This document shows, one piece after another, positions 12,530-46,488 of a stretch of 64,000 nucleotides of DNA (within the stretch, counting starts at the first letter, position 1; each line of letters starts with the position of its first letter). Origin of the DNA: Marinobacter adhaerens HP15. GTDB lineage: Bacteria; Pseudomonadota; Gammaproteobacteria; Pseudomonadales; Oleiphilaceae. The notes under the pieces were generated by a model. That model was not told the DNA's origin. It did not search any database and saw only the letters and a list, made by a program, of their open reading frames with translations. A program made the position numbers and the translations under genes. Where the stretch lies: positions 2,976,001 through 3,040,000 of the forward strand of contig NC_017506.1 of NCBI RefSeq assembly GCF_000166295.1, written 5' to 3'.

Positions 12530-12823
12530 TTACATGGATGTTTTATCCCCTTCGGACATTCCATCCTTTTTCATGGCGTCTTTTTCCATTCCCTCTTTCT
12601 TCATGTCCTCATCCATCATGCTTTCGGTCTTCATCCCGTCATGCATGGTGTCCATGGTGTCGGACTTCATGGAGTCTTTGGCCATACCGTCATCTTTCAT
12701 GTCGTCCTGCATCATGGTGTCGTCCATTCCCTTGTTGCCCTTGTCCATGTCGTCTGCATGGGCCGGGGCCATCAGGGCCAGGGTGGTACCGAGGGCCAGA
12801 AGCGTCGCTGTCAGGCTTTTCAT
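12530..12823 (-). CDS. Methionine-rich secreted peptide
   Basis: A 97-residue precursor: a clear signal peptide ending AHA (residue 23) and a 74-residue mature part made almost only of Met, Asp, Lys, Gly and Glu in irregular repeats such as MKKDGM, MKDDGM and MKSDTM. Seventeen of 74 mature residues are Met. Methionine-rich periplasmic peptides can bind copper(I) or scavenge oxidants, but no Cys and only one His is present here, so function is open. Ribosome site AAGGAG precedes the start. Confidence 0.75.
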   Translation of the reverse strand: MKSLTATLLALGTTLALMAPAHADDMDKGNKGMDDTMMQDDMKDDGMAKDSMKSDTMDTMHDGMKTESMMDEDMKKEGMEKDAMKKDGMSEGDKTSM

Positions 12824-33795: not shown

Positions 33796-35495
<1,700 letters not shown>

Positions 35496-44913: not shown

Positions 44914-45612
44914 GTGCCAATGGCAAACCCTAGACGAAAAGAGTCCGTAGCCGACAGGGTCTATGAGGCCCTGAAAGAGGACATCTTCGAGTTCCGCCTG
45001 ATCCCTGGCGACCGATTCAGCGAGGGGGATGTCGGAACCCGCCTGAACGCAAGCCGGACACCGGTGCGGGAAGCACTGTACCGCTTGCAGCGGGAGGGCC
45101 ATGTGGAGGTGCTGTTCCGCAGTGGCTGGCAGGTAAAGCCATTCGATTTCCAGCAGGTGGAGGAACTCTATGACCTGCGCATCACCCTCGAACGGGCGGC
45201 CGTGCACAAGATCTGCAACCTGCCTGAAGAGCCCGCAGCACTGCGAACCCTGGTAGCCCTCTGGAACCCGGACCATCCATCCGAGCGTGCGGTGGGCAGC
45301 ACCGTCAGAATGCTGGACGAGAGCTTTCACTGCGATCTGATGGCCGCTGCCGGAAACCGGGAGATGACACGAATTCATCGTGAGATCACCGACAGGCTGA
45401 GAATTGTGCGGCGCCTGGACTTCAGCCGGGACGAGCGTATTGATGCCACTTACCTGGAGCATGCCGCGATTCTGGAGGCACTGCGCAACGGGCAGGCAAG
45501 CGAGGCGGCGGATCGTCTCACCCGTCATATCCGTGCCAGCCAGAAGGCCGTGCGGGAAATCACCATGGAGCGAATCCGCGAGGCGGCTGCCGCCCACCGC
45601 AGTGAGAAATAA
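44914..45612 (+). CDS. GntR-family regulator (FCD type)
   Basis: A 232-residue regulator. Residues 10-75 are a winged helix (VADRVYEALKEDIFEF, then LNASRTPVREALYRLQREG). The rest is an FCD-like helical ligand domain with metal-type acidic/His residues (DESFHCDLM, and EHAAILEAL). A GTG at 44914 has better spacing to ribosome site AGGGG than the ATG at 44920. It follows atzF by 38 bases, and the paired GTATAC sites are plausible targets. Confidence 0.88.
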   Translation: MPMANPRRKESVADRVYEALKEDIFEFRLIPGDRFSEGDVGTRLNASRTPVREALYRLQREGHVEVLFRSGWQVKPFDFQQVEELYDLRITLERAAVHKICNLPEEPAALRTLVALWNPDHPSERAVGSTVRMLDESFHCDLMAAAGNREMTRIHREITDRLRIVRRLDFSRDERIDATYLEHAAILEALRNGQASEAADRLTRHIRASQKAVREITMERIREAAAAHRSEK

Positions 45613-45681
45613 ATTGCCTCTCAGGCCCCGAAAATACTGAACTCAGGTTCATTTTGACACCCGCCGAAAAGCTTACAGATT

Positions 45682-45699
45682 CGTAAGATATATCGCACA
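45682..45699 (+). promoter_or_regulatory. Imperfect GacA/UvrY box upstream of the GGA-rich RNA
   Basis: CGTAAGATATATCGCACA fits the 18-base GacA/UvrY pattern TGTAAGA-N4-TCTTACA at 11 of 14 arm positions. It lies about 65 bases upstream of the expected RNA start, the usual place for this box at rsm/csr RNA promoters. TAGAAT at 45743-45748 could be the -10 element. Confidence 0.5.
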
Positions 45700-45753
45700 A
45701 ACCATGGAGCGATTCTCCGATAGGTAGGAATTCGATACACAGTAGAATGATCA

Positions 45754-45965
45754 GTGTCAGGGATGACAAGCCAGCAAGGAACGTTGGCTCAAGGACGAGA
45801 ACTCCAGGGAAGAGCCCTCCGCGGCTCGGGAGTTGCCCGAAGGATCAGGGCTTACAGGGATGGTCACAGGGAAGACGCGCTCAGGATGAGTCGCACGCCT
45901 GAGGGAACAGGCAGGGGTCAGCCACGGAATCGGGGATCACAAGGAATGTGGTCCCGTCCGTGCAC
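45754..45965 (+). ncRNA. CsrB/RsmZ-like CsrA-sequestering RNA
   Basis: About 210 bases of non-coding sequence hold 12 GGA triplets at 45761-45945, most as AGGGA, AAGGA or AGGAT in loops of short stems. Examples are GTC-AGGGAT-GAC (45756), CTC-AAGGAC-GAG (45788), GCCC-GAAGGATCA-GGGC (45835) and GCCTG-AGGGAA-CAGGC (45897). A long closing hairpin (CACGGA at 45923 with TCCGTG to 45962) ends it. This is the hallmark of CsrB/RsmY/RsmZ RNAs, which titrate the translational regulator CsrA/RsmA. A GacA-like box lies upstream. The 3' end is uncertain because no T-run follows. No protein gene is seen in 45613-46067. Confidence 0.8.
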
Positions 45966-46067
45966 TTCCCATACCCACCGACATTTCTGCTCTCTTCTTA
46001 CATTTCGCTTCTGCTGCTTTGCGCCCTGGCACACAACCATAAATGCAAATCTCAGGAGCTTGAATTC

Positions 46068-46337
46068 ATGAAGCGCACACCGCTTTTCGCAACTCTTATT
46101 CTGCTGTTCAGCCTGGTTACCGGTTTTGCCTACGCCCAGGACGCCGCTATCAATATCAACACAGCCGATGTGGCTACCCTCGCCAGCCTGAACGGCATTG
46201 GCCAGAGCAAGGCCGAAGCCATCGTTGCCTATCGCGAAGCGAATGGCCCTTTTGCAGTTACCGCAGACCTGGCAAATGTGAAGGGCATTGGCGAACGTAC
46301 CATCGAGAAAAATGCCGCGCGCCTGACCGTGAAGTAA
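46068..46337 (+). CDS. ComEA-like helix-hairpin-helix protein
   Basis: An 89-residue exported protein: signal peptide ending AYAQ (about residue 23), then a double helix-hairpin-helix (ININTADVATLASLNGIGQSK in part, GPFAVTADLANVKGIGERT). This is the short ComEA type that binds double-stranded DNA in the periplasm during natural transformation. Start ATG 46068 with ribosome site CAGGAG; the ORF extending to 45948 overlaps the regulatory RNA. Confidence 0.9.
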   Translation: MKRTPLFATLILLFSLVTGFAYAQDAAININTADVATLASLNGIGQSKAEAIVAYREANGPFAVTADLANVKGIGERTIEKNAARLTVK

Positions 46338-46488
46338 TACCCCGGGCAGTGGCGCGCTGCCGCTGCCCTTCCTCTTTCTAAATCCCCTCCCTTCCTCTTT
46401 ACTGCTGCCCATAAAGTCGTCTGGCAACACCGCGCTCGCCACCCTATTATAGCTGGATAACAATTCAAAAACCGTTGAGCATCCGCAC

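Follow-up and report, generated by a model that had tools for sequence, protein, structure and literature searches.

A candidate CsrA-sequestering RNA encoded upstream of comEA across the genus Marinobacter

Described Csr/Rsm RNAs and the gap upstream of comEA

The RNAs CsrB and CsrC and the RNAs RsmX, RsmY and RsmZ, known from Escherichia coli and Pseudomonas, carry GGA motifs in hairpin loops and linkers and have a GacA/UvrY-type box upstream, whose consensus is TGTAAGN6CTTACA. RNAs of the CsrB/RsmZ type end in intrinsic terminators, a usual rather than strictly defining trait. PMC9788540 gives the gene order fdxA-rsmZ and describes CsrR1 and CsrR2, from the marine alkane degrader Alcanivorax dieselolei, as putative Csr-type RNAs. 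CsrR1, reported there only in two species, adjoins hfq, CsrR2 adjoins a ferredoxin gene, and the origin of CsrR1 in the hfq 5' UTR is a proposed precedent for a sponge derived from an mRNA leader (PMC9788540). Alteromonas macleodii Te101 has three small RNAs, Aln1a-c, characterized in PMC5864184 as rich in single-stranded A(N)GGA.

We analysed a gap in the genome of Marinobacter adhaerens HP15 that encodes a proposed CsrA-sequestering RNA, here called RNA1 (Table 1). A GntR-type regulator gene (so named by the first-pass annotation) and a comEA-like gene flank the gap, and the two genes share the + strand. Coordinates refer to the window, the whole 64,000-nucleotide stretch analysed. The first-pass annotation had attributed a CsrB/RsmZ-like architecture to the gap, and the ten ANGGA motifs, conserved helices, covariation and retained unpaired GGA described below bear this out; the lack of a terminator after RNA1, the constant same-strand comEA and a second GGA-rich RNA in the genome (RNA2) were added here. 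RNA1 resembles CsrB/CsrC and RsmX/RsmY/RsmZ in its loop and linker GGA, in its upstream box and in the presence of GacA and CsrA in the genome. It differs from CsrB and RsmZ in having no Rfam match, no intrinsic terminator and a downstream comEA. It differs from CsrR1 and CsrR2 of A. dieselolei in adjoining comEA, and from CsrR1 also in being genus-wide. It shares with Aln1a-c an abundance of A(N)GGA in unpaired regions and an origin in marine gammaproteobacteria; Aln1a-c differ in being three RNAs, and the excerpted text of PMC5864184 mentions no comEA link. The way of working proposed for RNA1 is that of CsrB and RsmZ; the RNA itself lies outside Rfam, is present genus-wide and is probably coupled to comEA. 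Among the matches listed in our literature searches, titles and abstract openings mentioned neither a Csr sponge RNA in Marinobacter, of which an earlier prediction is possible, nor a link between a sponge and comEA.

Table 1. Features of the RNA1-comEA locus, in window coordinates
Feature	Position	Strand	Remarks
Putative GacA/UvrY-type upstream activating box, CGTAAGATATATCGCACA	45682-45699	+	18 bases
-10 hexamer TAGAAT	45743-45748	+	No recognisable -35; position kept in 64/80 loci
RNA1, proposed CsrA-sequestering RNA	45755-45966	+	8 helices; 13 GGA, 10 of them ANGGA
Hairpin 1	45755-45768	+	Loop GGA 45761, kept in 22/22 aligned sequences
Hairpin 2	45769-45789	+	Loop GGA 45778, 22/22; 96.1% of cells paired
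Linker with GGA 45793	45790-45799	+	GGA kept in 22/22
Hairpin 3	45800-45834	+	Loop GGA 45808, 21/22; two pairs with both-side changes
Hairpin 4	45835-45851	+	Loop GGA 45842, 22/22
Linker with GGA 45858 and 45870	45852-45876	+	GGA kept in 21/22 and 22/22
Hairpin 5	45877-45894	+	Loop GGA 45884, 21/22; two pairs with both-side changes; 85.1% of cells paired
Hairpin 6	45897-45912	+	Loop GGA 45904, 22/22; stem invariant
Terminal long hairpin (helices 7 and 8)	45923-45962	+	Loop GGA 45943, 21/22; five pairs with both-side changes
comEA-like gene (helix-hairpin-helix)	46068-46337	+	TIGR00426 above cut-off; proposed second part of the RNA1 transcript
Terminator-like stem after comEA	46344-46368	+	11 pairs, 8 of them G-C; T-rich tail

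Covariance models of the known families do not recover RNA1. A search of 45500-46100 with all 4227 Rfam families at E values up to 10 returned only Ocean-VII (10.7 bits, E 3.5), and no Csr family reached its gathering score anywhere in the window. The two Csr/Rsm families run genome-wide, CsrB and PrrB_RsmZ, exceeded their cut-offs in 0 of the 124 genus genomes, as anticipated by the earlier remark that such RNAs are often missed by covariance models; on control genomes the CsrB search finds E. coli and the PrrB_RsmZ search gave no match over cut-off. Below the cut-offs there was a single match to each model (PrrB_RsmZ at G155:C9:187709-187824, 28.9 bits; CsrB at G126:C3:82296-82495, 24.2 bits), neither of them at RNA1 or RNA2. 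Around RNA2, the only Csr family at E values up to 10 was RsmY (9.6 bits, E 7.5), and no Rfam family matches either RNA1 or RNA2 at its cut-off.

Structure, GGA sites and distribution of RNA1

The first-pass annotation had counted 12 GGA in about 185 bases. The richness in GGA stands and the count does not, the numbers being 13 in 45755-45966 and 15 in 45682-45965. Against so G-rich a background the raw count stands out only mildly: dinucleotide shuffles had a mean of 8.6 and were as high in 103 of 5000 cases, and 7 of 31,894 test windows away from RNA1 (both strands) matched it. The ANGGA count is far more distinctive, at 10 versus a mean of 2.2 in shuffles, none of 5000 being as high; across the same 31,894 test windows on both strands the best value was 9. 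The next-richest ANGGA stretch of the window, with 9 in 212 nt, lies at 12540-12790 on the - strand and looks coding for a Met/Asp/Lys-rich repetitive protein, so it is probably not an RNA.

Folding of the gap, proposed earlier as a check, gave a mixed outcome: the single-sequence fold of RNA1 was only slightly better than shuffles (z -1.33, 25/200 as good), and the structure therefore rests on the comparison of relatives, which did bring out the helices. The structure alignment (A1) holds 22 sequences, 16 of 38 non-redundant ones having been left out for long indels or divergence, and 4 of 53 RNA1 loci having been dropped because they failed the extraction pattern. Its eight helices comprise 44 pairs, with 94.9% of cells paired and changes on both sides in 10 pairs, counts that favour the helices because these were picked on the same alignment that scored them. 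The same caveat applies to covariation, which reached 0.163 compared with 0.115 +/- 0.006 in shuffles (0/500 as high) and with 0.030-0.063 when the structure was slid along the alignment. The hairpin GCCTG-AGGGAA-CAGGC singled out by the first-pass annotation is found exactly where it was placed, as hairpin 6; its invariant stem provides no covariation evidence. Hairpin 3 is longer in M. adhaerens than in most relatives. RNAalifold paired columns 82-85 of the alignment with columns 167-170; by eye, the local hairpin 4 was preferred to this pairing.

Conservation follows the predicted single-stranded sites. Of the ten unpaired GGA, seven lie in hairpin loops and three in linkers, and every one of them is retained by 21 or all 22 of the sequences, in agreement with the expectation that the GGA loops would be conserved in other Marinobacter, while the three GGA that touch stems are kept in 15, 17 and 18. 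RNA1, which is short and apparently non-coding, carries many ANGGA in its loops and linkers and has a conserved stem-loop architecture (with helices chosen on the alignment that scored them). Most loci have 9 to 11 ANGGA and 8 of 80 distinct loci have 5 or 6, so ten CsrA-type sites are not universal; the 80 loci were taken from 147 by a pattern requiring hairpin 1, the 3' part and no fewer than 7 GGA, which biases GGA counts upwards. The middle of RNA1 is missing in some species outside the 22-sequence alignment.

A DNA search with the gap sequence found matches in 53 of 97 genomes (61 of the genus, our own included, and 36 of other families), and all 53 were Marinobacter. A covariance model of RNA1 (R1) matched in 121 of 124 genus genomes, including 110/110 of good quality; the three without a match are 62, 82 and 82% complete. 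Across the order, 17 of 390 genomes matched, 16 of them of the genus and one among 374 others, in a search that scored six candidates per genome, so that distant relatives may be missed. The single non-genus match, in G307 (50.8 bits), belongs to another genus of the same family and is followed by a comEA-like gene (by eye). A pattern scan of named genomes yielded 76 records, and the full RNA1 pattern was passed by 58 of the 61 titled Marinobacter and by none of the other 15. A locus from a record titled Halomonas sp. MAG SAT58 (L163) carries the 3' part of RNA1 and fails the full pattern; its neighbours are Marinobacter-like (gntR, lutA and amidase matches), and the record is perhaps a mislabelled Marinobacter bin. 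Two equal-scoring R1 matches near both ends of one contig in G011 are probably an assembly overlap, and G016 has a weak second match.

Promoter, downstream comEA and RNA2

The first-pass annotation had noted an 18-base GacA-like box about 65 bases upstream of the likely start, and the box does occupy that place. In 75/80 distinct loci the best box has its centre 65 nt upstream of hairpin 1, with the consensus TGTARGAGATATCKCACA; it scores 9-11 of 12 in 68/80, compared with a score of 9 in 4/80 shuffled upstream stretches. The pattern by itself is not specific and is useless genome-wide, as it gave 108 matches with at most one mismatch versus 109 for a reversed control. TAGAAT sits 7 nt before hairpin 1 in 64/80 loci. 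A sigma-70 scan reported nothing at the RNA1 promoter and no -35 consensus is evident there, which would fit an activator-dependent promoter. RNA1 probably starts near 45755, making 45682-45754 the promoter region. By eye, a TCCGAT motif at about 45712-45721, between the box and the -10 hexamer, recurs in many aligned relatives; it is not at normal -35 spacing. The genome encodes GacA, adjoining uvrC (NF007018, the UvrY/SirA/GacA equivalog, 299.5 bits with a cut-off of 280), and two CsrA, both above the Pfam cut-off, the matched stretch of the second scoring under the NCBIfam cut-off. A putative GacA/UvrY-type box upstream of RNA1 is accompanied by both GacA and CsrA in the genome.

Downstream, comEA follows on the same strand in all 80 distinct loci, after a spacer that has a median of 119 nt, is about 70 nt in some species (e.g., L017 and L026) and lacks conservation between clades. 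No U tract follows RNA1, the longest T run in the next 40 nt being at most 4 in 70/80 loci. Between RNA1 and comEA we found terminator-like sites in 5/80 loci versus 7 in shuffles and promoter-like sites in 3/80 versus 4, whereas terminator-like sites after comEA occurred in 24/80 versus 7, each control being one mononucleotide shuffle per locus. In this respect RNA1 departs from a discrete RNA with its own intrinsic terminator, a property that RNA2 has in 30/30 loci (below). Since RNA1 lacks a terminator and comEA is always downstream, the primary transcript most probably runs through comEA. A predictor for this RNA class (PMC5568370) scanned only regions in which the last ANGGA is close to a poly-U tail and a Rho-independent terminator is predicted, and RNAs built like RNA1 would therefore be skipped; the main text of PMC5568370 makes no mention of Marinobacter. 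More sponges of this kind may sit hidden in mRNA leaders.

A clearly duplicated RNA1-comEA unit was seen in one genome only (G117). Its two loci (L203 and L210, 3.2 kb each) have in common a block of 704 bp, at 91.9% identity, which opens 21 nt upstream of the box (read by eye as CGTAGGAAAAGGCTTACA and CGTAGGAGAAAGCTTACA) and closes with a strong terminator directly behind comEA; apart from this block, the loci align only at the terminator's own inverted match. With its box, promoter, RNA1, comEA and terminator, the copied block has the appearance of an entire transcription unit. By eye, the second copy has a chemotaxis-receptor-like gene on one side and a Clp-type AAA ATPase gene on the other. 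comEA matches occur in 140 of 145 order genomes. Among the 24 comEA leaders resolved from the best 30 loci, the 5 from Marinobacter have 7-11 ANGGA per 200 nt and the 19 others 1-4.

The box pattern search also led to RNA2, at about 3547615-3547865 of the M. adhaerens chromosome sequence (G000:C1; L059:1685-1935), which has a GacA-type box (TGTGAGATATCTCTTACA) about 175 nt upstream and its own intrinsic terminator. RNA2 is present in 121/124 genus genomes and in 108/110 of good quality. In the 30 loci closest to M. adhaerens HP15 it has 10-11 ANGGA, and the scanner used for RNA1 found a terminator after it in 30/30 versus 4 in shuffles, again with one mononucleotide shuffle per locus. RNA1 and RNA2 are alike in their ANGGA richness, their GacA-type box and their presence in 121/124 genus genomes, and in M. 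adhaerens their first hairpins are nearly the same (GTCAAGGATGAC). They are otherwise distinct in sequence, R1 reporting only RNA1 in the M. adhaerens genome, and they differ in that RNA1 lacks the terminator and has its box 65 nt upstream, compared with 175-180 nt for RNA2 in 17/30 loci, those where the pattern was found.

Proposed function and alternative readings

RNA1 is best read as a GacA-activated CsrA sponge, with or without a transcript shared with comEA, and on the comparative sequence evidence we put the probability of this reading at roughly 0.87. We infer its transcription and start site, GacA binding, CsrA binding, a shared transcript and processing from the layout of the locus, as follows. 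Phosphorylated GacA would bind the box, some 65 nt ahead of the start, and activate a promoter that has no -35 element; CsrA dimers would then be taken up at about ten GGA sites in the hairpin loops and linkers of RNA1, which would deplete free CsrA and so release CsrA-bound mRNAs. RNA1 would act together with RNA2 and may be cut or trimmed to its terminal hairpin, and ComEA would be made under the same GacA control, with or without RNA1 being cut free. We consider it rather probable that RNA1 and comEA share one transcript, with RNA1 as the leader of the comEA mRNA. The fuller proposal, that across Marinobacter RNA1-comEA is a dual-function mRNA that is GacA-controlled, strips CsrA from its targets and makes a ComEA-type DNA-binding protein, is more tentative and in our judgement falls slightly short of even odds.

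The same sponge might instead stand alone in the manner of CsrB and RsmZ, its 3' end set by Rho or by trimming back to the terminal hairpin; comEA would then be a mere neighbour under its own promoter. We regard this variant of the sponge reading, whose odds overlap with those of the reading as a whole, as possible but rather doubtful. A Rho-dependent ending is compatible with the excess of C over G in the 100 nt after RNA1 in 80/80 loci, the conserved structure extends no further than the base of the terminal hairpin, and the detection of a terminator after comEA in under a third of loci counts against a shared transcript; yet the promoter signal in the spacer is no higher than chance, some spacers are only about 70 nt long, and comEA and its terminator are part of the extra copy in G117. 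The constant linkage to comEA would also suit a purely cis-acting 5' leader through which CsrA controls comEA translation or stability with no titration. This we think improbable: a leader would hardly seem to need as many as ten sites, 125 nt separate the last GGA loop from the comEA start codon in M. adhaerens HP15, and the box and architecture resemble those of sponge RNAs.

Hardly any weight falls on a gene for a small protein or on a G-rich spacer arising by chance. A 105-aa ORF with a GTG start (45754-46071) does overlap RNA1 in M. adhaerens HP15, and GGA as such is only slightly enriched. Across the 80 distinct homologues, however, any given frame stays open over the RNA in 11 at most, and the homologue lengths represent all three classes modulo 3. 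The protein-coding reading was rejected on these grounds, consistent with the earlier statement that the gap holds no credible ORF, and covariation and GGA conservation also speak against both possibilities. Relatives show the reverse of what the first-pass annotation named as evidence against its own reading, namely GGA loops lost and an ORF retained: the loops are kept and the ORF is not.

Under the sponge reading, RNA1 is a candidate for the RNA arm of the Gac/Csr system in an entire marine genus, and with comEA so constant a neighbour, a direct link from Csr control to DNA uptake can be put to the test. If the dual-function proposal is true, RNA1-comEA would tie the Gac/Csr lifestyle switch directly to DNA uptake. 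Nothing in the analysis supports the link to surface growth and biofilm on oil that had been suggested earlier. A metatranscriptome in which csrA itself was up in a Marinobacter under nutrient-amended dispersant-oil treatment, as reported in PMC10516948, is an indirect lead only, and the oil-biofilm link is speculation.

Elsewhere in the window, on the + strand, Rfam reports a cspA thermoregulator match at 2285-2712 (88 bits, gathering score 78) and a 5_ureB_sRNA match at 35067-35349 (109 bits), the latter of which may reflect the conserved ureB coding sequence.
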